A stretch of DNA of 64,000 nucleotides from Paraburkholderia sp. BL10I2N1 (GTDB lineage: Bacteria; Pseudomonadota; Gammaproteobacteria; Burkholderiales; Burkholderiaceae). This document shows positions 52,715-63,870 of the stretch, in pieces; the first letter of the stretch is position 1; every line of letters begins with the position of its first letter. The position numbers were made by a program, and so were the translations under genes. The stretch lies in assembly GCF_004361815.1 (NCBI RefSeq), contig NZ_SNWA01000001.1:2852001-2916000 (forward strand). Direction: 5' to 3'. A model generated the notes under the pieces. It did not search any database. It had not been told where the DNA came from and was given only the letters and a program-made list of their open reading frames with translations.

Positions 52715-54106
52715 TCACATCACCGCGGAATGCAGATGATGGGGATGGTCGAGGGTCTCGGCGATGAGCCGCAACGCCTCCTCGCACTCGTCGCGGTTTT
52801 TCGAGCCGCCGAGGCACACGCGCACCGCATTCGGCGGATTGCCATCGGTTGAAAACGCAGCGCCCGCGACGGCAGCGATGCCCTGATTGCGCAGTTGCAA
52901 TGCCAGTTCGGAGGAACTCCAGCCACCTTCGGACGGGATCGGCAGCCACAGATGAAAGCCGTCCGGATGGGCGTCATAGGGACACGCGCCCAGCACGCGC
53001 GACGCGATCGACTGACGCGCTCTCGACTCACTGCGAATCGCTTCGAGCATGTCGTGCGCGGTGCCATCGATCAGCCACTGGGTCGCGAGCGACACCGTAT
53101 ACGGACTTGCCATCACAGTGGTCGCGCGCAAAGCGCCAGCAAGACGTTGCGCCTGGCGCGGCGTTGGCGCATGTAGGTACGCGACTCTCAAGCCCGCGCC
53201 CAGGCTCTTCGAAAGTCCCGTCACATACCAGGTCAACTCGGGCGCGAAGCGGGCCAGCGCGTCAGGTGCCTGTTGCGGCAGCATCGCGTAGGCGTCGTCT
53301 TCGATGATCGGCACGTTGTAGCGCAGCGCCACGTCGGCGAGTGCCTCGCGCCGCTTGTGCGTGAGGGTCAGCGTGCTCGGGTTCTGCAGTGTCGGATTGC
53401 AGTAGAAGGCGGCGGGTTTGTCGGTCTTGCAGAGCGCTTCGAAGGCGTGCGCGAGCGGGCCTTCATCGTCGCGGGCGAGTGCCTGCAGGCGTACACCGAG
53501 TTGCGCCGCAATCGCCTTGATGCCCGGATAGGCGAGCGTATCGAGGCAGATCATCGCGCCGGGCCGTGCCAGCTGCGACACGAGCGCCACCAGCGCACTA
53601 TGGATGCCTGGACAGACCAGCACGTTCTCCGCATCGGCGTCGGGCAAACGGCGTTTGAGCCACCCGGTGCCGGCGGCCTTGTCGGCGGAGGTGCCGCCGA
53701 AATCCTGATAGCGCAGCAGCCGGTAGGGGTCGGTCTCCGCCATCAAACGCGCGGCCGATTCACGCAGGCGCGCAGCGTAGTCAGCGGGCTCCGGCGGCGT
53801 GTTCATCGACATTTCGATGCTGCTGCCGCCAGTAAGCGGCAACGTCGGCGCGCGCCCGCGCACGAACGTGCCGCTACCGGCCCGCGAATCGAGCAGGCCG
53901 CGCTTTCTCGCTTCGGCGTACGCGCGCGCGACGGTCGTGTAGTTCAGATCCAGTTCGCTGGCCAGATCGCGCAGACCCGGAAGGCGATCGCGCGGACGCA
54001 GCCGCCCGGTGGCCAGATCTTCCTCGATCAGTTCCGGAATGGCCAGATAAGCCGGCTTGCGCATATCGGCCAGTCGTTTGATCCAGTGATGAATCGCGTT
54101 ACTCAT
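52715..54106 (-). CDS. MocR-type regulator (GntR HTH plus aminotransferase fold)
   Basis: The 463-aa protein has an N-terminal GntR winged helix (LPGLRDLASELDLNYTTVARAYAEA split as RDLASELDLNYTTVARAY) and a PLP-dependent aminotransferase-like domain with a likely PLP lysine in WYVTGLSKSLGAGLR. MocR proteins sense PLP or amino compounds. It is divergent from the Nit1C cluster and could regulate it, but MocR targets are often nearby exporters or PLP genes, so this is inference. Confidence 0.88.
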   Translation of the reverse strand: MSNAIHHWIKRLADMRKPAYLAIPELIEEDLATGRLRPRDRLPGLRDLASELDLNYTTVARAYAEARKRGLLDSRAGSGTFVRGRAPTLPLTGGSSIEMSMNTPPEPADYAARLRESAARLMAETDPYRLLRYQDFGGTSADKAAGTGWLKRRLPDADAENVLVCPGIHSALVALVSQLARPGAMICLDTLAYPGIKAIAAQLGVRLQALARDDEGPLAHAFEALCKTDKPAAFYCNPTLQNPSTLTLTHKRREALADVALRYNVPIIEDDAYAMLPQQAPDALARFAPELTWYVTGLSKSLGAGLRVAYLHAPTPRQAQRLAGALRATTVMASPYTVSLATQWLIDGTAHDMLEAIRSESRARQSIASRVLGACPYDAHPDGFHLWLPIPSEGGWSSSELALQLRNQGIAAVAGAAFSTDGNPPNAVRVCLGGSKNRDECEEALRLIAETLDHPHHLHSAVM

Positions 54107-54214
54107 GATTCTGTTTCGGTCTGGTGTGAATTAAATAAAGCCTATCACGCGCACATAATAAAAATAAACATGATTGCATTCATTGATCGCATTGATCGTA
54201 TTTCGTGAACCACT

Positions 54215-54262
54215 GCACCATGCCGGTACGCATGCACCACGAACAGGGCACGCGTATGGTGC
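54215..54262. promoter_or_regulatory. Two NtrC-like enhancer sites
   Basis: GCACC-ATGCC-GGTAC (54215-54229) and GCACG-CGTAT-GGTGC (54248-54262) each match the NtrC pattern GCACC-N5-GGTGC with one mismatch. Their centres are 33 bases apart, three helical turns, similar to the paired sites at glnA. They lie about 160-200 bases upstream of the predicted sigma-54 start. Confidence 0.6.
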
Positions 54263-54396
54263 GGCAAGGCCGGAGGGCGTGCTCGCGCGGCATGCCTGAA
54301 GCGTCACGCAACCTTCACGCCAGCATTTTTTTCGGCTCGCTTTCCGAATGATCGTCTGCTTGATCGGCAATTGATTGCATTTGCGAGGGCTATCAG

Positions 54397-54412
54397 TGGC
54401 ATGGCAAATGCA
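54397..54412 (+). promoter_or_regulatory. Sigma-54 promoter of the Nit1C cluster
   Basis: TGGCATGGCAAATGCA fits TGGCACG-N4-TTGCA with two mismatches and exact GG-N10-GC spacing. The start would be near 54423, 60 bases before the nitB ATG, which has GGAGAG upstream. With the NtrC-like sites it points to nitrogen control. Confidence 0.72.
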
Positions 54413-54482
54413 TTATCTCTATCGCCGCTAAAGTAAATCTAAATCCATTGATTTAATCTGCTCAATTTAAAAGGAGAGTGCC

Positions 54483-54965
54483 ATGCCGGCCGTCAATAAA
54501 CCGAAGCACGAGAAAGGCGATTACCTGGTCGATTACGAGGAGAAAGTCTTCGAGGACGTGAAGGCGGAGCCGGGAGAGAAGGCGCTCGTCACGTTCCACA
54601 CGGTCGCGTTCGAGGGCTCGATCGGCTTCGTCAACCTGTTGCAGGCGACGCGGCTGCAACGCAAGGGCTTTGAGACGTCGGTGCTGCTGTATGGGCCGGG
54701 TGTCACGCTTGGCCTGCAGCGCGGCTTTCCGACGCTCGGCGACGAGGCGTTTCCGGGCCACCTGAACTTCAACAAGCAACTGATCAAGTTCATGGAAGAG
54801 GGCGGCAAGGTCTACGCGTGCCGTTTCGCGCTGCAGGCCCTGTACGGTCACGGCGAGGCATCGCTGATCGAGGGCATCCGTCCGATCAGCCCGCTCGACG
54901 TGCTCGACATCCAGCTTCTGCATCGCAAGGACAACGCGCTGATCATCCACACCTGGACGGTCTAG
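54483..54965 (+). CDS. nitB: Nit1C protein, MSMEG_0572/Sll0783 family
   Basis: The 160-aa protein is the small conserved first member of the Nit1C cluster, family named after MSMEG_0572 and cyanobacterial Sll0783 (nitrogen-starvation responsive). It shows [21 protein letters not shown] and [17 protein letters not shown], somewhat like DsrE-fold proteins. Its role is unknown; nitB is highly induced during growth on cyanide in Pseudomonas fluorescens. GGAGAG precedes the ATG. Confidence 0.93.
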
Positions 54966-54986
54966 ACAAAGGGGCGGGCCTTCACC

Positions 54987-56033
54987 ATGTCTGAGAAACG
55001 CATCGTCCGGGCGGCGGCCGTGCAGATTGCACCGGATTTCGAACGCATCGACGGCACGCTGAACAGGGTCTGCGAGGCCATCGACCGCGCGGCGCGCGAA
55101 GGCGTGCAACTGATCGTGTTCCCCGAGACCTTCGTGCCGTACTACCCGTACTTTTCATTCGTGCGGCCGCCGGTGGCATCGGGAGGCGACCACATGAAGC
55201 TGTACGAAGAAGCGGTGGTGGTGCCCGGTCCTGTCACGCAGGCGGTCGCGGAGCGCGCGAGATTGCACCGGATGGTGGTTGTGCTCGGCGTCAACGAGCG
55301 CGATCACGGCAGCCTGTACAACACGCAGCTGATCTTCGATGTCGATGGGCAACTGCTGCTCAAGCGCCGCAAGATCACACCGACGTTCCACGAACGGATG
55401 ATCTGGGGGCAGGGCGACGCGGCCGGCTTGAAGGTGGTGCAAACGGCGGTCGCACGGGTCGGCGCGCTCGCCTGCTGGGAGCACTACAACCCGCTCGCGC
55501 GCTATGCGTTGATGACGCAGCACGAAGAGATTCACTGCAGCCAGTTCCCCGGCTCGCTGGTGGGGCCGATTTTCGCGGAGCAGATCGAGGTCACGATCCG
55601 TCATCACGCGCTGGAGTCGGGCTGCTTCGTCGTCAACGCGACGGGCTGGCTGACAGACGCGCAGATCGAATCGGTCACCCCCGATCCGAATCTGCAGAAG
55701 GCGCTACGCGGCGGCTGCAACACGGCGATCGTCTCTCCGGAAGGGCAGCACCTGGCCGCGCCGTTGCGCGAAGGCGAAGGCATGGTGATCGCCGATCTCG
55801 ACATGGCCTTGATCACGAAGCGCAAACGGATGATGGATTCGGTCGGTCACTACGCGCGGCCGGAACTGCTGAGCCTCGCCATCAATGATCGGCCGGCGTC
55901 GACCGTTTCGCCGATGACGGGTGTCCCAGCGGTCGCCAGCATTGCGACCGGCATCGATCTCAACTCAACCCAGGAATGGCGCGATGAACTCCAGCGAGAC
56001 ACTGCCGGCCGCAAGCCGGCAATTGATGACTGA
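54987..56033 (+). CDS. nitC: Nit1-branch nitrilase of the Nit1C cluster
   Basis: This 348-aa carbon-nitrogen hydrolase has the catalytic triad Glu47 ([13 protein letters not shown]), Lys129 ([14 protein letters not shown]) and Cys163 (LACWEHYNP). Nitrilases convert nitriles to acids plus ammonia; NitC is required for growth on cyanide as nitrogen source in Pseudomonas fluorescens, but its true substrate is not settled. It lies 21 bases after nitB and overlaps the radical SAM gene by 50 bases. Confidence 0.95.
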
Positions 56034-57096
56034 ACTGCAGTCGGTCGGGCTGCGGCTCGCCGATCCTGATGCAGGCGTCGCCAGCCGGCGCGGCGGCGCG
56101 GGTCCGTCCGATCACAAGGCGGTGACAGTCGACGGCGTGACGATCATGGTGCCCGTGCATACGAACACGGCGTGGCACTCGCCCTTCGTTGCGGCAACGC
56201 CGGATGCGGGCGGCGCGAGCGCCTTGATGCGCGGCACGATCCCGATCGCGAGCATCAGCTTTCCGAAGGCGCCGCGTTTCTACGCGATGCAGACGCTCGA
56301 TGGCGTGCCGTACTCGCACATCGCGACGCTGCACAGTGCCGACGTACTCGCGACCACCGTGCTGCAGACGTGCATCCGCTACGAGAGCCGCCGCAAGTCG
56401 TGCAGGTTCTGTGCGATCGGGCAATCGCTGGCAGCAGGCCGCACGATTGCGCGCAAGACGCCCGAACAGCTTGCCGAAGTCGCGCGCGCGGCAGTCTTGC
56501 TCGACGGCGTCAAACATATGGTGCTGACGACCGGAACGCCAGCCACCAGCGATCGCGGCGCGCAGATACTGTGCGAGAGCGCGTTCGCGATCAAGGGCGC
56601 CGTCGATCTGCCGATCCAGGCGCAATGCGAACCCCCCGACGACGACCGCTGGTTCGCGCGCATGAAAGCGAGCGGCATCGATACGCTGGGCATGCACCTC
56701 GAAGTGGTGACGCCCGCCTTGCGCGAACGCATCATGCCCGGCAAGGCGAGCGTGCCGCTGTCGCGCTACATGGAAGCGTTCAGGTCGGCGGTGGCCGTGT
56801 TCGGCAGAGGGCAGGTCAGCACCTACATACTCGCGGGACTCGGCGATTCAGCCGAAGCGATTCTCGCGATGTCGCGCACTTTGATCGACCTTGGCGTCTA
56901 TCCGTTCGTCGTGCCGTTCGTGCCGATCAGCGGCACGCCGCTCGAAGACCATCCGGCGCCTTCGCCCGAATTCATGAAATCGGTGTTGCAACCGCTTGGC
57001 GCGATCCTCGGCGCGGCGCGGATGCGCTCCAGCGAGATCAAGGCGGGCTGCGGCAAATGCGGCGCGTGTTCGTCGCTGTCATCGTACGAGGTGTGA
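55984..57096 (+). CDS. nitD: Radical SAM protein, MSMEG_0568 family
   Basis: The 370-aa radical SAM protein has an unusual cluster motif: Cys130-x9-Cys140-x2-Cys143 ([16 protein letters not shown] region) instead of Cx3Cx2C. A second Cys set (C356, C359, C362 in CGKCGACS) near the C-terminus could hold an auxiliary iron-sulfur cluster. The reaction is unknown. ATG 55984 lies inside the end of nitC. It is part of the conserved Nit1C operon. Confidence 0.93.
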
Positions 57097-57098
57097 TC

Positions 57099-57659
57099 AT
57101 GCTGGCCGAAGCGATAGACCTCGACGCGTTGCCGACAGCCTGGACGGCGAGCGAATACCGGATCAAATGGACGACCTTGCCCTGGGAAGCCGATCAGGCG
57201 TTCAGGCTGCGGCGCGCGGTGTTCTGCATCGAGCAGGGAATCTTCGTCGGCGATGACCGCGATGCGACGGACGAGCGCGCCCAGCAACTGGTTGCCGTCA
57301 GCTGTATCGCGGGGATGCCGGAGCAGGTGGTCGGCACGGTGCGCATTCATGAAGATGAACAGGGCGTCTGGTTCGGTTCGCGGCTGGCGGTGCATGCGGC
57401 GTACCGAAGGCACGGCAAGATCGGTGCGACGTTGATCCGGCTTGCGGTCAGCAGTGCGCACGCGCTCGGTTGCGAGACCTTCCTCGCTCACGTGCAGAGC
57501 CAGAACGTGCCGCTCTTTCGCGCGCTGCACTGGGATGTGCTGGCCGAAGAGATGCTGCTTGGACGTCCCCATCATTTGATGCAGGCGCAGCTCGATCACT
57601 ATCCGCCCTGTGCGACGCCGCGCAGTGGTTTCGTGACGCACTCGCGGAGCGCGTCGTGA
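57099..57659 (+). CDS. nitE: GNAT N-acetyltransferase, MSMEG_0567 family
   Basis: The 186-aa protein has a GNAT fold with the acetyl-CoA loop VHAAYRRHGKIGATLIRLA (about residues 95-113) and IKWTTLPWEADQAFRLRR before it. The acceptor is unknown. Start ATG 57099 is two bases past the radical SAM stop. Its stop overlaps the next gene in a GTGA arrangement. Confidence 0.92.
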   Translation: MLAEAIDLDALPTAWTASEYRIKWTTLPWEADQAFRLRRAVFCIEQGIFVGDDRDATDERAQQLVAVSCIAGMPEQVVGTVRIHEDEQGVWFGSRLAVHAAYRRHGKIGATLIRLAVSSAHALGCETFLAHVQSQNVPLFRALHWDVLAEEMLLGRPHHLMQAQLDHYPPCATPRSGFVTHSRSAS

Positions 57660-58642
57660 GCGTCGCCGAACTTGTCGCCAGCCTGCGGGAGAGCCGCGGC
57701 TTCATGCACAAGACCGATATCGTCGATGTGCTGTCTTCGCTTGCGCGGGGCTTGCCAGGCGGCGCCGACGATCTGAAACAGGCAGTCGCCGTGGGTGACG
57801 ATTGCGCGGCCATCGCCGATGGCGACGGATATCTGCTGTTCGCGATCGAAGGCATGGTCAGCGATTTCGTCGAGGCGATGCCCTGGTTCGCCGGCTATAG
57901 CGGCGTGATGGTCAACGTCAGCGATATCTATGCGATGGGCGGTAGACCGATTGCTGTCGTCGATGCGCTGTGGAGCGACGGCATCGGCGCGGCAGGGCAG
58001 GTCCTGGCGGGTATGGCGGCTGCATCGGTGGCGTATGGCGTGCCGGTTGTCGGTGGGCACACGAATACGCGCAGCGATCAGGCGCAACTGGCCGTGTCGA
58101 TACTGGGGCGCGCCAGTGCGTTGCTGTCCAGCTTCAACGCGAAGCCGGGCGATCGCCTGATGATGGCAGTCGACCTGCGTGGCAGGTTCGAGGAACCGTA
58201 TCCGTTCTGGAATGCGTCGGTGGGTGCACCGGCGACGCGTCTGCGTGCGGATCTGGAACTACTGCCCGAACTGGCGGAAAGCGGTCTGTGCGATGCCGCC
58301 AAGGACATCAGCATGGCCGGTACGCTCGGCACCGCGTTGATGCTGCTCGAATGTTCCCGCATGGGTGCGCGAATCGATGTCGACCGCATACCAAAGCCGG
58401 AAGATGTCGCGCTCGCCCGCTGGGTGACGGCGTTTCCGAGTTTCGGCTATCTGCTCTCTGTGCGAGAGCACCATGTCGCGCAGGTGCAGGAGCGCTTTGC
58501 CGCGCGCTCGCTTGCGTGCGCGGTGATCGGCACGGTCGACGAATCGTGTGAAGTCATCGTGCATCGTGGAGACGATGCTGCCGTGCTTTGGGATTTCGGG
58601 CGTGAGCCCTTTATCCTCACGCCCCAAGGAGGCAGGCGATGA
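57656..58642 (+). CDS. nitF: AIR synthase-like protein, Sll0787 family
   Basis: The 328-aa protein resembles PurM/HypE ATP-dependent enzymes: AVGDDCAAIADGDGYLLFA, VNVSDIYAMGGRPIAVVDAL and GGHTNTRSD give a nucleotide- and metal-binding layout. It likely activates a carbonyl oxygen by phosphorylation, but the substrate is unknown. The GTG start 57656 overlaps the upstream TGA, and its stop overlaps the glycosyltransferase start (ATGA). Confidence 0.9.
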   Translation: MSVAELVASLRESRGFMHKTDIVDVLSSLARGLPGGADDLKQAVAVGDDCAAIADGDGYLLFAIEGMVSDFVEAMPWFAGYSGVMVNVSDIYAMGGRPIAVVDALWSDGIGAAGQVLAGMAAASVAYGVPVVGGHTNTRSDQAQLAVSILGRASALLSSFNAKPGDRLMMAVDLRGRFEEPYPFWNASVGAPATRLRADLELLPELAESGLCDAAKDISMAGTLGTALMLLECSRMGARIDVDRIPKPEDVALARWVTAFPSFGYLLSVREHHVAQVQERFAARSLACAVIGTVDESCEVIVHRGDDAAVLWDFGREPFILTPQGGRR

Positions 58643-59814
58643 ACCTCAGTTCGCTTCACATCGCGTTGCTGACGCATTCAGTCAATCCGCGTGGCGGTGT
58701 CGTGCATACGCTGGAACTGGCAAACGCGTTGACGGCACACGGCCACGACGTCACGGTATTCGCGCCCGCCGCAGCCGGAGAAATGTTGTTTCGTGAGCCT
58801 CCATGCCGCGTTGTTCTCGCGCGGGTTACGGGTTCCCAGGCAAATACGGTCGAGATGGTCGATGCGCGCATTCGCGCCTTGAAGGAAGCGCTGCGCGATT
58901 CGTCGTCATTTGATGTGCTGCATGCGCAGGACAGTATCAGCGGAAACGCGCTCGCGGAGCTGAAAGAGGAGGGGGGGATCGAGGGATTTGTGCGCACCGT
59001 TCACCACCTGGATCACTTCGACAATCCGCGTCTGGCCGCGTGGCAGGTGCGCGCGTATCGCGATGCGGATAGCGTGCTGTGCGTCAGCGACACGTGGACT
59101 GCGGAAATGCAGCGCACGTATGGAATCGATGCGGTGACCGTACCGAATGGTGTCGATACCACGCGCTTTTGCCCGGACGTTTCCGGCGAGGCTGACGACG
59201 CCACGTGCACGCGCATAGGCGTTGATGGTTCGCCGGTCGTTCTGGCGGTGGGCGGCATAGAAGCGCGCAAAAACACGCTTGGGCTGCTAGACGCATTCGC
59301 TCTTGTGCACAGGAAGCTGTCGCGCGCGCAACTCGTGATTGCAGGTGGCGCCAGCCTGCTCGATCACAACGCGTATGCCGATCGTTTCATCCAGCGAGCA
59401 GAGGAGCATCGGCTTTCGACAGGACCGTACGAAAACATCGTTGTGACAGGCCCGCTCAGCGACTCTGCAATGCCCGCGCTTTTTAGAAGTTCGGATGTGC
59501 TGGCGATGGTGTCTCTGCACGAAGGCTTCGGACTGGTCGTGCTGGAAGCGCTTGCGTGCCGTACGCCCGTGGTTGTATCGGACATCGCGCCGTTCAACGA
59601 ATACCTCGACGACAGCACCGCCTGCTGGGCAACGCCGACCGACGCCCATTCGATGGCGTCGGCGCTGATGCGCACGATCGACGGCAGCTTCAAGGCCGAC
59701 TTCGCTCGCGCTGTGCCTGCGCTGCTCGCGCGTTTCAGCTGGGACGCGAGCGCGCGCCGTCACGTCGACGTCTATCTCAGCTATCTGTCGAAACAATCTC
59801 TGGCGATTCTCTAA
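58639..59814 (+). CDS. Glycosyltransferase, MSMEG_0565 family
   Basis: This 391-aa GT4-type (GT-B fold) enzyme has an N-terminal half with NPRGGVVHTLELANALTAHG and a C-terminal nucleotide-sugar site with EGFGLVVLEALACRTPVVVS, which holds the E-x7-E pattern. It suggests that the Nit1C product or an intermediate is glycosylated. The ATG overlaps the nitF stop by four bases. The sugar donor is unknown. Confidence 0.92.
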   Translation: MNLSSLHIALLTHSVNPRGGVVHTLELANALTAHGHDVTVFAPAAAGEMLFREPPCRVVLARVTGSQANTVEMVDARIRALKEALRDSSSFDVLHAQDSISGNALAELKEEGGIEGFVRTVHHLDHFDNPRLAAWQVRAYRDADSVLCVSDTWTAEMQRTYGIDAVTVPNGVDTTRFCPDVSGEADDATCTRIGVDGSPVVLAVGGIEARKNTLGLLDAFALVHRKLSRAQLVIAGGASLLDHNAYADRFIQRAEEHRLSTGPYENIVVTGPLSDSAMPALFRSSDVLAMVSLHEGFGLVVLEALACRTPVVVSDIAPFNEYLDDSTACWATPTDAHSMASALMRTIDGSFKADFARAVPALLARFSWDASARRHVDVYLSYLSKQSLAIL

Positions 59815-59823
59815 GGAGCGCTC

Positions 59824-60108
59824 ATGCCTGTCATGCACTTCCGGATTCGATGGCCCGATGGCAACGAAGCGAACTGCTATTCGCCGTCGCAAGTCATCAG
59901 CGATTTCTTCGTCCCAGGCACGGAGTACCCGCTCAACGATTTCGTCGACCGCTCGCGTCAGGCCTTGGGCATTGCGTCCGAACGCGTGCGGCAGAAGTAC
60001 GGCTATGCCTGCTCGGCGGCCATGGACCAGCTTGAGCAGATCGAACGCGATGCGGCACGGTTCGACGATAGGCCCGACGCGACGGTCAAGGTCATCGAGT
60101 TCAGTTGA
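59824..60108 (+). CDS. Small Nit1C protein, MSMEG_0570 family
   Basis: The 94-aa protein begins MPVMHFRIRWPDGNEANCYS, the mark of the MSMEG_0570 nitrogen-starvation family. It has a conserved Cys and ends in VKVIEFS. It lies nine bases after the glycosyltransferase with GGAG upstream. Function unknown. Confidence 0.9.
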   Translation: MPVMHFRIRWPDGNEANCYSPSQVISDFFVPGTEYPLNDFVDRSRQALGIASERVRQKYGYACSAAMDQLEQIERDAARFDDRPDATVKVIEFS

Positions 60109-60182
60109 AACGTTAAACCCGGCCCGCCCTGGCGGATGTATCGCACATGCAAGGCGGGCATTCCCGAATGCAAGGACGCATC

Positions 60183-61484
60183 ATGTCGAAGACGAAACAC
60201 CACCTGGCTTCTCAGCCCGCCACCAACGGGCACTACAGCGTGATTGTCGTGGGCGGCGGGCAGGCGGGGCTGTCGGTCAGCTACTACCTGGCGCAGCACG
60301 GCATCGATCATCTGGTCATCGAGAAAAACACGGTGACGCACACATGGCGCCACCAGCGCTGGGATGCGTTTTGTCTCGTGACTCCGAACTGGCAATGCGC
60401 GTTGCCAGGCCATCCGTACCGCGGCGACGATCCACATGGATTCATGAAGAAGGATGAAATCATCGCGTATCTCGATGGCTTCATCGCAATGGTGAACGCG
60501 CCCGTGATCGAGAACACCGAAGTCAAACGCGTGAGGCGTCTGGAAGACGGCCGCTATGGCGTCTCGACGACACAGGGCGACTTCATCGCCGATCAGGTGG
60601 TGGTGGCTTCGGGCGGCTATCACACGCCGATCGTGCCGCGTATGGCCGAGCGCCTGCCGTCGCATATCGTGCAGATGCAGTCGTCCGAATATCGCAATCC
60701 CGAGACATTGCCCGATGGGGTGGTGCTGGTGGTCGGCTCCGGCCAGTCCGGTGCGCAGATCGCCGAGGACCTGCACCTCGCGGGACGCAAGGTGGTGCTC
60801 GCCGTTGGCGAAGCGCCGCGCTGTGCGCGCTTTTATCGAGGACGCGATGTGGTCGACTGGCTCGCGGACATGCAGTACTACGACATGCCGGTGGAAAAAC
60901 ATCCACTACGCGAAGGTGTGCGTGACAATACCAATCACTATGTCACCGGACGCGACGGCGGACGCGATATCGATCTGCGCAAATTCGCTTCCGAAGGCAT
61001 GGAACTGTATGGTCGCCTTGAAGACCTGCAGCGGGGCGTGCTGCATTTCGCACCGAACCTCGCAATCAATCTCGACGATGCAGACCGCACGTACAACAGC
61101 ATCAACGCCAGTATCGACGCATTCATCAACCGCAGCGGTATCGATGCGCCGGCGGGTAGCGCGTATGAAGCGATGTGGCGGCCCGCAGCCGAGCGCACGA
61201 CGCTCGATATGGCCACAAGCGGCATCGCTGCGATCATCTGGTGTATCGGTTTTACGCCGGACTTCAGCTGGATCGATGCGCCGGTCTTCAACGGGCGGGG
61301 CTATCCGGCGCACGTGCGCGGAGTGACACCGCTCGGCGGTCTATATTTTGTCGGGCTGCCGTGGCTGCATACCTGGGGATCGGGGCGCTTTTCCGGCATT
61401 GCGCGCGATGCCGATCATGTCGTGCAGGCGGTGCTCGCGCATCGACGCAAGCGAACGATGTGCGTGGACACGGTCGCAGCCTGA
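60183..61484 (+). CDS. Flavin-dependent oxidoreductase, MSMEG_0569 family
   Basis: The 433-aa protein is like class B flavin monooxygenases. The FAD loop VVGGGQAGLSVSYYL lies near residue 20 and the NADPH loop VVGSGQSGAQIAEDL near residue 185. ATG 60183 (beginning SKTKHHL) is used, though in-frame starts at 60147 and 60168 exist. It closes the Nit1C cluster and may catalyse an N- or C-oxygenation, perhaps making a nitrile-related intermediate (inference). Confidence 0.92.
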   Translation: MSKTKHHLASQPATNGHYSVIVVGGGQAGLSVSYYLAQHGIDHLVIEKNTVTHTWRHQRWDAFCLVTPNWQCALPGHPYRGDDPHGFMKKDEIIAYLDGFIAMVNAPVIENTEVKRVRRLEDGRYGVSTTQGDFIADQVVVASGGYHTPIVPRMAERLPSHIVQMQSSEYRNPETLPDGVVLVVGSGQSGAQIAEDLHLAGRKVVLAVGEAPRCARFYRGRDVVDWLADMQYYDMPVEKHPLREGVRDNTNHYVTGRDGGRDIDLRKFASEGMELYGRLEDLQRGVLHFAPNLAINLDDADRTYNSINASIDAFINRSGIDAPAGSAYEAMWRPAAERTTLDMATSGIAAIIWCIGFTPDFSWIDAPVFNGRGYPAHVRGVTPLGGLYFVGLPWLHTWGSGRFSGIARDADHVVQAVLAHRRKRTMCVDTVAA

Positions 61485-61542: not shown

Positions 61543-62232
61543 TTACGCGCTCGCCGTCTTCGCTCCGCACGCGCGAATCACGAGCGCGACGACTTCTTCG
61601 GTCGCGACGTCGAAGGCCTTTTTCGACAGCGCGCGCTTGCCCGCGAGCGCTTCGATCTGCGCGTCGAAGTCCGCGTAGTGCTGGGTCAGTGCCCAGATCA
61701 TGAAGAGAAAAGTGCGGGCGTCGAGCGGGGCGAGCAGGCCTCGCGCAATCCAGTCGTTGATCACGACGACACGCGTTTCCATCCACGGCTTCACGCGTCC
61801 CGCCAGGATGTCCTGCATGTGCGTTGCGCCGTGAATGATCTCGTTCGCCCATACCTTCGAGCCGAGCGGACGCCGGCGCGACAACTCCATCTTTGCGCGT
61901 ACATAGCCGCCAATCGCTGCGACGGGATCGTCGCTGCAGTCGAACGTATCAGCGGCGCGATACCACTCCTCGAAGATATCGTCGAGCACGCGCCGGTAAA
62001 GATCGAGCTTGGTCGGGAAGTAGTAATGCAGGTTGGCTTTCGGTAAGCCTGCGCGTTCCGCGATCATCGCAGTGCTGGTGCCTTCGAGCCCGCGTTCCGC
62101 GAATACCGCCTCGGCGCACGCCAGCAGATGCGCCTCGTTCGTGTTGCGAATGTGGGCCTTGCGCCGCCGCATTGGCTTCGTCGTTTCTTCGTTTGCGCCG
62201 GCTATGACCGGCGTATCGTCGTCTTTCATCAT
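61543..62232 (-). CDS. TetR-family regulator with RutR-like C-terminus
   Basis: The 229-aa protein has a TetR helix-turn-helix (TSTAMIAERAGLPKANLHYYF) and a C-terminal domain of RutR/YcdC type. RutR senses uracil or thymine, so it may control the divergent carbamoyl hydrolase gene and pyrimidine breakdown. It is convergent with the Nit1C cluster and divergent from the hydrolase. Confidence 0.88.
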   Translation of the reverse strand: MMKDDDTPVIAGANEETTKPMRRRKAHIRNTNEAHLLACAEAVFAERGLEGTSTAMIAERAGLPKANLHYYFPTKLDLYRRVLDDIFEEWYRAADTFDCSDDPVAAIGGYVRAKMELSRRRPLGSKVWANEIIHGATHMQDILAGRVKPWMETRVVVINDWIARGLLAPLDARTFLFMIWALTQHYADFDAQIEALAGKRALSKKAFDVATEEVVALVIRACGAKTASA

Positions 62233-62601
62233 CGGCCTCGCCTGGCTCAGGAGCCCTCAGTCGCCGCGTCGCGCCTCATTGTAGTCGTATTGCGGCACGC
62301 GACGCACGGCCTGTCTCATCCACCGAATGCGGCGTACCGCACGCATGTTGCGGTGCAATGGCACGCTTTTCGCTCATACGGAAGTCATTGAAATATCTTT
62401 ATTAATCGTCTACAACCTGTCCAATCGGACAGGATTGGTGAAGCAGGCAATCGAACCGTATCGACGACCGGGCGCCGGCGTAAGTGGTATGCACCGGCCA
62501 CGGGCGCCACGCCCCAAAACATGTCGTCCGTGCACCGCATCTGCGCCACGTTGTCCTGCGTGTGTGTATGGATAGCCCGATTCGCGTGAGGAGAGAGACT
62601 G
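62233..62601. other. Divergent region between TetR-like regulator and hydrolase
   Basis: These 369 bases have no gene. They contain a sigma-70-like promoter and nested palindromes at 62388-62438; the remainder, including a leader of about 175 bases before the hydrolase ATG, shows nothing identifiable. Confidence 0.55.
62388..62438 (+). promoter_or_regulatory. Promoter with nested-palindrome operator for the hydrolase
   Basis: TTGAAA (62388-62393) and TACAAC (62411-62416) are 17 bases apart. Overlapping the -10 and start are two perfect inverted repeats that share bases: CCTGTCC-N4-GGACAGG (62416-62433) and CCAATC-N6-GATTGG (62421-62438). This is a typical TetR-type repressor site, so the TetR-like product probably represses the hydrolase. 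Confidence 0.65.
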
Positions 62602-63870
62602 ATGAACGCAGTGACGGACAAAGGACTCGACGTGTCGATCAAGGTGAACGGTCAACGTCTGTGGGACAGCCTGATGACGATGGCGAAGATCGGCGCGACG
62701 CCGAAGGGTGGTGTGTGCCGGCTTGCCTTGACCGATCTCGACCGGGAAGGGCGTGACCTGATCGTGAGCTGGGCGAAGGAAGCAGGGTGCACGGTCAGCA
62801 TCGATCAGATGGGCAATGTGTTCATGCGCCGCGCAGGCCGCAATGCGGCGGCGTTACCGGTGATGACCGGCTCGCACGCCGATTCCCAGCCCACGGGTGG
62901 CCGGTTCGACGGCATCTACGGCGTGCTGGGCGGGCTCGAAGTGATCCGCAGCCTGAATGATCACGGGATTGAAACCGAGCACCCGGTGGAAGTTGTGATC
63001 TGGACCAACGAGGAGGGCTCACGTTTTGCTCCGGCGATGGTCGCCTCCGGTGTGTTCGCAGGTGTGTTTACCCTGGAATATGGTCTGTCGCGAAAGGACG
63101 TCGACGGCAAGACGATCGGCGAGGAGCTCAGGCGTATCGGCTACGCGGGCGATGTTCCATGCGGTGGACGACCGATTCACGCGGCGTTCGAACTGCACAT
63201 CGAACAGGGGCCGATTCTCGAAGCGGAGCACAAGACGATCGGGGTTGTGACCGATGCGCAGGGTCAGCGCTGGTATGAAATCGTGTTGACGGGACAGGAG
63301 GCGCATGCAGGGCCGACACCCATGCCGCGTCGGCGCGATGCGTTGCTCGGCGCATCGCGTGTGGTCGATCTCGTCAACCGCATCGGCCTGAATCACGCGC
63401 CGTTCGGCTGCGCGACCGTCGGCATGATGCAGGTGCATCCGAACTCACGCAACGTGATTCCGGGGCGCGTGTTCTTCACAGTCGACTTCCGTCATCCGGA
63501 CGATGCCGTGCTGAAGGAAATGGATGCGGAGTTGCGGGAGGGCGTCGCGTGCATTGCCGGCGAAATCGGTCTTGAAACGCAGCTCGAGCAGATCTTTTAT
63601 TACGCACCGGTCGCGTTTGACACGGCCTGCGTCGAGTCGGTCCGTGCGGCGGCTGTGCGCTTCGGCTACCCGAGCCGCGACATCGTGTCGGGCGCAGGTC
63701 ACGACGCCTGTTATCTGTCGCAGGTCGCGCCGACGTCGATGGTATTCGTGCCATGCGTCGACGGGATCAGTCATAACGAAATCGAGGATGCCACGATCGA
63801 ATGGATCGAGGCGGGCGCTAATGTCTTGCTGCACGCGATGCTCGAGCGAGCGTGCGAGCCTGCTTCATAG
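62602..63870 (+). CDS. N-carbamoyl amino acid/beta-ureidopropionase-type amidohydrolase (M20)
   Basis: The 422-aa metalloenzyme has M20-family metal ligands in GSHADSQPTGGRFDG (His and Asp), WTNEEGSRF (Glu pair), FELHIEQGP (His) and GISHNEIED (His). Members hydrolyse N-carbamoyl amino acids, beta-ureidopropionate or allantoate. With the RutR-like regulator, a beta-ureidopropionase role in reductive pyrimidine breakdown is favoured, but the substrate is not fixed by sequence. GAGGAGAG precedes ATG 62602. Confidence 0.87.
   Translation: MNAVTDKGLDVSIKVNGQRLWDSLMTMAKIGATPKGGVCRLALTDLDREGRDLIVSWAKEAGCTVSIDQMGNVFMRRAGRNAAALPVMTGSHADSQPTGGRFDGIYGVLGGLEVIRSLNDHGIETEHPVEVVIWTNEEGSRFAPAMVASGVFAGVFTLEYGLSRKDVDGKTIGEELRRIGYAGDVPCGGRPIHAAFELHIEQGPILEAEHKTIGVVTDAQGQRWYEIVLTGQEAHAGPTPMPRRRDALLGASRVVDLVNRIGLNHAPFGCATVGMMQVHPNSRNVIPGRVFFTVDFRHPDDAVLKEMDAELREGVACIAGEIGLETQLEQIFYYAPVAFDTACVESVRAAAVRFGYPSRDIVSGAGHDACYLSQVAPTSMVFVPCVDGISHNEIEDATIEWIEAGANVLLHAMLERACEPAS

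Follow-up and report, generated by a model that had tools for sequence, protein, structure and literature searches.

A complete Nit1C cluster in Paraburkholderia sp. BL10I2N1 with its own MocR-type regulator and a conserved predicted sigma-54 promoter

The Nit1C cluster and its distribution

The window analyzed in this work, a stretch of 64,000 nucleotides from contig NZ_SNWA01000001.1 of Paraburkholderia sp. BL10I2N1 (a 9.2-Mb genome in 4 contigs), contains a complete betaproteobacterial Nit1C cluster at positions 54483-61484. An earlier reading, made from the sequence alone (hereafter the sequence-only reading), had placed eight tightly packed genes here and taken them for one pathway. All eight are indeed found where it had put them, on one strand and without interruption:

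54483..54965, plus strand, nitB, MSMEG_0572/Sll0783 family (TIGR04044, 286 bits)
54987..56033, plus strand, nitC, Nit6803-family nitrilase (TIGR04048, 584 bits, above cut-off)
55984..57096, plus strand, nitD, MSMEG_0568-family radical SAM protein with CX9CX2C and a C-terminal CxxCxxC (TIGR04043, 597 bits)
57099..57659, plus strand, nitE, GNAT N-acyltransferase (TIGR04045, 243 bits)
57656..58642, plus strand, nitF, AIR-synthase-like ATP enzyme with a GTG start (TIGR04049, 482 bits)
58639..59814, plus strand, GT4 glycosyltransferase (GT), MSMEG_0565 family, optional member (TIGR04047, 503 bits)
59824..60108, plus strand, nitG, MSMEG_0570 family, two conserved Cys (TIGR04042, 137 bits)
60183..61484, plus strand, nitH, MSMEG_0569-family flavin-dependent oxidoreductase/monooxygenase (TIGR04046, 683 bits)

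Each of the eight proteins exceeds the curated NCBIfam cut-off of its own Nit1C family in profile searches, and the seven core genes (nitB, C, D, E, F, G and H) are all present. The packing is also as claimed, with overlaps of 50 bases (nitC/nitD) and 4 bases (nitE/nitF and nitF/GT) and a gap of 2 bases between nitD and nitE, provided that the GTG at 57656 is the start codon of nitF. This start is favored because it raises the TIGR04049 score from the 467 bits obtained with the first ATG (57704) to 482 bits, covering profile positions 2-316 of 318.

A survey of 398 Pseudomonadota genomes with the TIGR04043 (NitD) profile yielded 16 genomes above the cut-off, the host among them, and in the 16-18-kb stretches taken around the other 15 matches (the first loci) the seven core genes occur together without exception (15/15). 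Hence, the grouping is no chance event, in agreement with the view of a single pathway. The RutR-like TetR gene (61543-62232) and the M20-type hydrolase gene (62602-63870) that follow nitH in the window (61543-63870) were weighed as possible members and judged to lie outside the unit, since only 1 of the 15 first loci has a TetR match scoring over 60 bits. The regulator and promoter region upstream of nitB (52715-54482), on the other hand, belongs to the unit, although the sequence-only reading had drawn its boundary at 54483.

Three further samples were used. A species-genome collection scanned with two NitB peptide patterns gave at least 569 loci, of which the best 80 were kept. The window, the 15 first loci and these 80 scan loci make up a set of 96 upstream regions, whereas a second set of 96 loci, with nitB and nitH, comprises the window, the 15 first loci, 73 of the 80 scan loci (7 without nitH being excluded) and 7 plasmid loci. 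Both sets are biased towards relatives of the window and include three duplicate pairs (L045/L084, L046/L060 and L054/L058), the removal of which leaves the sigma-54, GT and LnmK counts discussed below at 89/93, 53/93 and 37/93. Lastly, the family set comprises 150 genomes of the host's family, 27 with nitB and 123 without it.

NitD is found on 513 plasmid records, 373 from Klebsiella and 30 from Escherichia, and the one Klebsiella record examined (L138) has genes for both MocR and a PrpE-like ligase. A Rhodococcus plasmid locus (L142, 9225-16866) encodes nitB, nitD, a fused nitE-nitF, nitG, nitH, another C-N hydrolase and GT; no nitC match was found there at E 1e-3. Caballeronia sp. dw_19 harbors a complete cluster (L082) and a reduced nitB-nitE-nitH-LnmK-mutase unit (L064, 9989-15523); a search of the latter found no nitC, D, F, G or MocR. 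Two Massilia loci (L106, L114) are rearranged, with mocR, nitE and nitH upstream of nitBCD, nitF and nitG. Phage-borne NitB gave no match at E 1e-5 in 50,697 phage records.

The first description of Nit1C dates from 2005 and already includes, for Burkholderia and Rubrivivax, a GT inserted after nitF and before nitG (PMC1199592). The structural genes of the window are no different from that description in content, order or GT insertion, and the cluster is thus a further copy of a known kind. What this work adds concerns its regulation, the accessory modules of its relatives and the resemblance of NitD to lipoyl synthases.

Regulation of the cluster

The gene divergent from nitB encodes a regulator:

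52715..54106, minus strand, MocR-type regulator with a GntR helix-turn-helix (Pfam GntR, PF00392) and a class I aminotransferase domain (Aminotran_1_2, PF00155)

This is the MocR/GabR architecture. Against EhuR, the closest NCBIfam model and one for ectoine regulators of the EhuR/EnuR kind, the protein scores 396 bits, below the curated cut-off of 480. A similar gene adjoins nitB in 14 of the 15 first loci, and among the scan loci, the best 80 of at least 569, MocR is present in 77, being absent from L064, L105 and L119 and located 3' of nitH in L109 and L128. In the family set, with at most 11 candidates scored per genome and the best matches listed, a full-length match of at least 49% identity occurs in 27 of the 150 genomes, exactly the 27 with nitB, and the next-best full-length match among those listed reaches 41%. 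This coincidence indicates that the MocR gene belongs to the Nit1C cluster. It lies on the contig of nitB in all 27 genomes, within 0.5 kb of nitB in 26 and some 4.5 kb off in the other (G483). Elsewhere in the host genome (C1:706438-707019) part of another Nit1C-type MocR gene remains, which matches residues 269-462 at 71% identity, carries a TAG and is probably a relic.

Two MocR residues, K300 and R429, are kept in 92/92 aligned sequences, and residues of this kind in related regulators read an amine and a carboxylate. Judging by its position, K300 is presumed to be the pyridoxal phosphate (PLP) lysine and to correspond to Lys302 of EnuR, a regulator that binds alpha-acetyldiaminobutyrate through PLP-Lys302 (PMC8739950).

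The intergenic region contains the following elements:

54171..54202, no strand assigned, three TGATYG repeats near the mocR start, of a motif enriched 5' of nitB; candidate autoregulatory MocR operator, by sequence reading
54214..54230, no strand assigned, NtrC-like site, 10/12 matches to the consensus
54247..54263, no strand assigned, second, weaker NtrC-like site, 9/12
54347..54380, no strand assigned, direct repeats TGATCG / TGATCGGCA / TGATTGCAT with a period of 11-12; candidate MocR operator, from motif enrichment
54397..54412, plus strand, sigma-54 (-24/-12) promoter TGGCATGGCAAATGCA, 11/12, by motif match

The sigma-54 element was scored against GG-N10-GC within TGGCAY-N5-TTGCW and the NtrC-like sites against TGCACC-N5-GGTGCA. 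A -24/-12 element scoring at least 11/12 precedes nitB in 88 of the 96 upstream regions, and one scoring at least 10/12 in 92 (all but L036, L074, L108 and L119), at a median position of -83 from the start codon. By comparison, 11/12 is reached by 2 of 1920 shuffles, a mild control since these (like those for the repeat motif) preserve mononucleotide composition, and by 23 of 1920 random 200-mers from the same loci, some of which may include true sites. Adjoining the element are TTGATYGCA direct repeats with an 11-base period: TGATCGCA occurs on either strand in 46 of 81 less redundant upstream regions against 0.5 expected, and the commonest spacing between successive TGAWYG motifs is 11 bases (71 times), followed by 4 bases (29 times). 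NtrC-like sites scoring at least 10/12 are over-represented at the right gap (28/96 regions against 105/4800 Markov shuffles, and 0-6/96 for other gap lengths); many are in Burkholderiaceae and they are not universal.

MocR proteins normally work at sigma-70 promoters, which makes the pairing of a MocR with a sigma-54 promoter unusual; the EnuR promoter, for instance, is a sigma-70 one (PMC8739950). The simplest mechanism we can infer is activation by NtrC with MocR gating the process near the nitB promoter, and this regulatory arrangement of sigma-54, NtrC and MocR, as read from conserved motifs, is quite likely to be right. The nitrogen connection of the sequence-only reading is supported; the regulator and the promoter had both escaped it.

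The 2005 study detected no conserved regulator sites and saw no conservation between species outside Nit1C (PMC1199592), an account with which the MocR gene and promoter found here contrast. The nitABCDEFGH cluster of Pseudomonas oleovorans CECT 5344 shares the seven structural genes with the window and is under sigma-54 control through NitA (PMC11049912), but there NitA is the divergent gene and no GT is listed, whereas the window has MocR in the place of NitA and a GT. Among the loci searched, that of Acinetobacter (L139) and L049 likewise carry a NitA-type sigma-54 activator in the MocR position beside nitB and lack MocR. The MocR described in the same Pseudomonas is also divergent, lies beside a cyanide-related nitrilase cluster (cio/nit4) and acts as a repressor (PMC8567248), yet it belongs to cio and not to Nit1C, an assignment shared by the covered parts of PMC11049912, PMC8567248 and PMC5333837; we regard it as a parallel to the MocR of the window. 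In openly readable papers, which set the scope of all literature searches reported here, we found no account of a dedicated MocR for Nit1C, of a conserved sigma-54 nitB promoter with 11-base repeats in MocR-type Nit1C clusters, of the optional GT and accessory genes described below, or of the seven invariant cysteines and lipoyl-synthase resemblance of NitD. The main text of a MocR regulon survey has no nitrilase match (PMC5320631).

Accessory genes

The GT is an optional member of Nit1C. It is found in 9 of the 15 first loci and missing from 6, present in 55 and absent from 41 of the 96 loci with nitB and nitH (the copy in L077, counted among the 55, is a remnant); in the family set it accompanies nitB in 14 of 27 genomes, and the 123 genomes without nitB have no match to the GT family at E 1e-60. 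According to the sequence-only reading, Nit1C makes a glycosylated, acetylated, nitrogen-rich metabolite, and the nitrilase acts on this metabolite or on a cyanide adduct. The window does contain both a GT and a GNAT protein, but glycosylation cannot describe the core product because the GT is missing from so many loci, and a nitrogen-rich product is disfavored a priori under nitrogen starvation. We therefore hold this version to be very improbable.

The flanks of related clusters may bear on the acyl group. A LnmK-like gene lies directly 3' of nitH on the same strand in 37 of the 96 loci (estimated distance -56 to +29 bases), with a methylmalonyl-CoA mutase gene next in 28 of the 37 (Paraburkholderia fungorum, L053, is one host with both), and a PrpE-like AMP-forming ligase takes the LnmK place in 3 of the 96 (L108, Klebsiella L138 and Acetobacter L140). 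The three LnmK-like proteins scanned all pass TIGR04099, and the two mutases scanned both exceed the equivalog cut-off. For the ligases of Klebsiella and Acetobacter the closest model is propionate-CoA ligase, with scores of 491 and 527 bits, below the cut-off of 955. Within the family set TIGR04099 matches occur in 15 of the 150 genomes (13 over the cut-off), all 15 among the 27 with nitB and none among the other 123. LnmK converts methylmalonyl-CoA to a propionyl carrier in leinamycin biosynthesis, and all three activities, those of LnmK, the mutase and the propionate ligase, lead to a propionyl/methylmalonyl unit. An unsupervised comparison of flanks singled out a single gene, found in 26 loci and identified as the methylmalonyl-CoA mutase; annotated plasmid loci then led to LnmK and the ligase. 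Other flank families also recurred. No paper joining LnmK, Pnap_2097 or TIGR04099 with Nit1C was found. The product may or may not be acetylated: a GNAT protein is there, and the supply genes of the relatives point to propionyl or methylmalonyl groups. The window has no LnmK-like gene, mutase or PrpE-like ligase, and its acyl donor would therefore come from central metabolism.

Core proteins

NitD resembles lipoyl synthases, a point that the sequence-only reading had also missed. Its seven cysteines are invariant in 94/94 aligned sequences, among them C215, C356, C359 and C362, the candidate ligands of an auxiliary cluster, and its predicted model is most like lipoyl synthases in fold comparison. 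The LipS2/LipA lipoyl synthases provide its nearest characterized sequence family and its nearest solved folds, and share extra C-terminal cysteines (PMC9585515). NitD differs from LipS2 in that it scores 43.8 bits against a cut-off of 270 and has a CX9CX2C radical SAM motif in place of CX3CX2C. A sulfur insertion step by NitD is, in our estimate, an even bet. No paper naming MSMEG_0568 was found. In another pseudomonadotal locus (L025, 1351-3888), a NitD-like radical SAM domain with CX9CX2C is fused to a DASS sodium:sulfate/anion symporter; L021 and L032 look similar by eye, and many such matches fall within one family.

NitE and NitF may act in consecutive steps, as suggested by their fusion into one protein in Rhodococcus; the GNAT and AIR-like parts are also fused in Mycobacterium smegmatis, since both carry the name MSMEG_0567. 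NitF keeps D32, D74, G79, G80 and H119 (numbered from the ATG) in 90/90 sequences, and its nearest relative outside the family in profile searches is the uncharacterized methanogenesis marker 2. The fusion and the conserved Asp and Gly residues of the superfamily would also suit the formation of a cyclic amidine, in which, much as for ectoine, an N-acylated diamino acid undergoes ATP-dependent ring closure, NitD performs radical chemistry other than sulfur insertion and the N-acyl diamino acid is the signal for MocR, much like the ligand of EnuR. EhuR is the closest NCBIfam model for all three Nit1C MocR proteins compared (window, Klebsiella and Acetobacter), always below the cut-off, and the EnuR ligand noted above fits the same picture. 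This route, however, leaves the seven cysteines of NitD and the LnmK/mutase module without explanation, and there is no diaminobutyrate gene among the eight of the cluster, all of which makes it quite unlikely.

NitB has one invariant cysteine, Cys113 (96/96 sequences), and a weak hhalign match to the DsrE profile (E 5e-4, probability 31%) pairs it with the cysteine of that family; NitB has no Pfam match and nothing significant by sequence in the PDB, where a DsrE chain appears at E 0.82. A DsrE-like fold is possible, to go by these alignments. NitG keeps C18 in 85/87 and C63 in 87/87 sequences and gives a confident predicted model, for which no PDB match was found.

NitC is a subfamily-1 (Nit6803) nitrilase, its 584 bits comparing with a cut-off of 502.6, and E47, K129, E136 and C163 are kept in 95/95 sequences; E47, K129 and C163 we take to be the triad, which is intact. 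The host genome encodes one further stand-alone NitC relative, at 455 bits below that same cut-off in the profile search. At C1:3033000-3048000 (L050, 2453-10219) it has a second subfamily-1-like nitrilase, 53% identical to NitC and followed by genes for an alpha/beta hydrolase and an NmrA-like protein, a locus resembling the post-transition nitrilase groups that PMC1199592 knew from environmental DNA alone.

The intact nitrilase raises the question of whether Nit1C is catabolic, with NitC turning cyanohydrins or other nitriles into ammonia and the remaining proteins supplying the conditions, such as a carrier or redox balance. The genetics are in keeping with this view. Growth on cyanide is reported to require Nit1C both in P. 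oleovorans CECT 5344 and in P. fluorescens NCIMB 11764, with NitC hydrolysing a cyanohydrin (PMC11049912). In CECT 5344 NitC also serves 3-cyanoalanine assimilation, and exposure to cyanide residue or 3-cyanoalanine induces Nit proteins (PMC8567248, PMC5333837). The cyanide link made by the sequence-only reading is thus in print (PMC11049912, PMC8567248). Yet a radical SAM protein, an ATP enzyme, an acyltransferase, a glycosyltransferase, LnmK and a mutase are all superfluous for hydrolysis, and in the Rhodococcus plasmid cluster no nitC was found at E 1e-3, whereas nitB, nitD, nitE-nitF, nitG, nitH and GT are retained and a different C-N hydrolase gene separates nitH from GT. Moreover, the gpr locus of M. 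smegmatis (MSMEG_0565-0572), which comprises the same families by NCBIfam naming, GT included, and is induced by nitrogen starvation, shows peroxide and biofilm phenotypes without cyanide (PMC6039565). There GlnR takes the place of sigma-54 and MocR, and the phenotype studied, which the sequence-only reading had missed, is peroxide resistance, and the locus also raises the NADPH/NADP ratio of nitrogen-starved cells; preliminary complementation with single genes failed, and its NitB is called DsrE-like (PMC6039565). The authors of work on Synechocystis Sll0783 (NitB) also ascribe to it a role in redox balance (PMC3901256). On balance, Nit1C is probably biosynthetic in nature, and a catabolic role is rather unlikely.

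Proposed function of Nit1C

We propose that Nit1C is an operon under nitrogen control that makes a small redox metabolite bearing sulfur and an acyl group, with the hydrolysis of a nitrile or cyanide as one of its steps or as a side use. To this scheme, taken as a whole, we assign a probability of roughly 0.38. Under nitrogen shortage, nitB would be transcribed from the conserved sigma-54 promoter, probably with activation by NtrC, and the operon would make the small metabolite. The dedicated MocR, with its PLP lysine, would sit on the adjoining direct repeats and sense a ligand with both an amine and a carboxylate group, the likeliest being an amino-acid-like compound from the pathway itself, either its substrate or an intermediate. 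NitE may then N-acylate an amine with a short acyl group, and NitF could activate the resulting amide with ATP for cyclization or dehydration. NitD would insert sulfur from an auxiliary [4Fe-4S] cluster held by Cys215/356/359/362, with NitB as its possible sulfur carrier, and NitH might provide an oxidation step. NitC would hydrolyse a nitrile intermediate or a cyanide adduct, freeing ammonia, while in the lineage of the window the GT would decorate the product. The product would act in redox protection, and cyanide use would be a consequence of the nitrile step.

A more far-reaching version is that Nit1C defines a new class of metabolite: a sulfur-bearing redox compound with a propionyl or other short-chain acyl group, glycosylated in some lineages, formed under nitrogen starvation by a lipoyl-synthase-like radical SAM enzyme, with a nitrile intermediate or adduct explaining cyanide use and a MocR that responds, at a sigma-54 promoter, to an amino acid of the pathway. 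In this detail we think the proposal unlikely to be correct. No Nit1C product is named in the publications covered.

The cluster is widespread, ranging here from soil bacteria to Klebsiella plasmids and reported in print from cyanobacteria and mycobacteria. The comparison presented in this work narrows the question of its product to sulfur, a propionate/methylmalonate unit and the ligand of MocR. More generally, growth on cyanide and resistance to peroxide, which have so far been studied apart, would be joined in one testable scheme.

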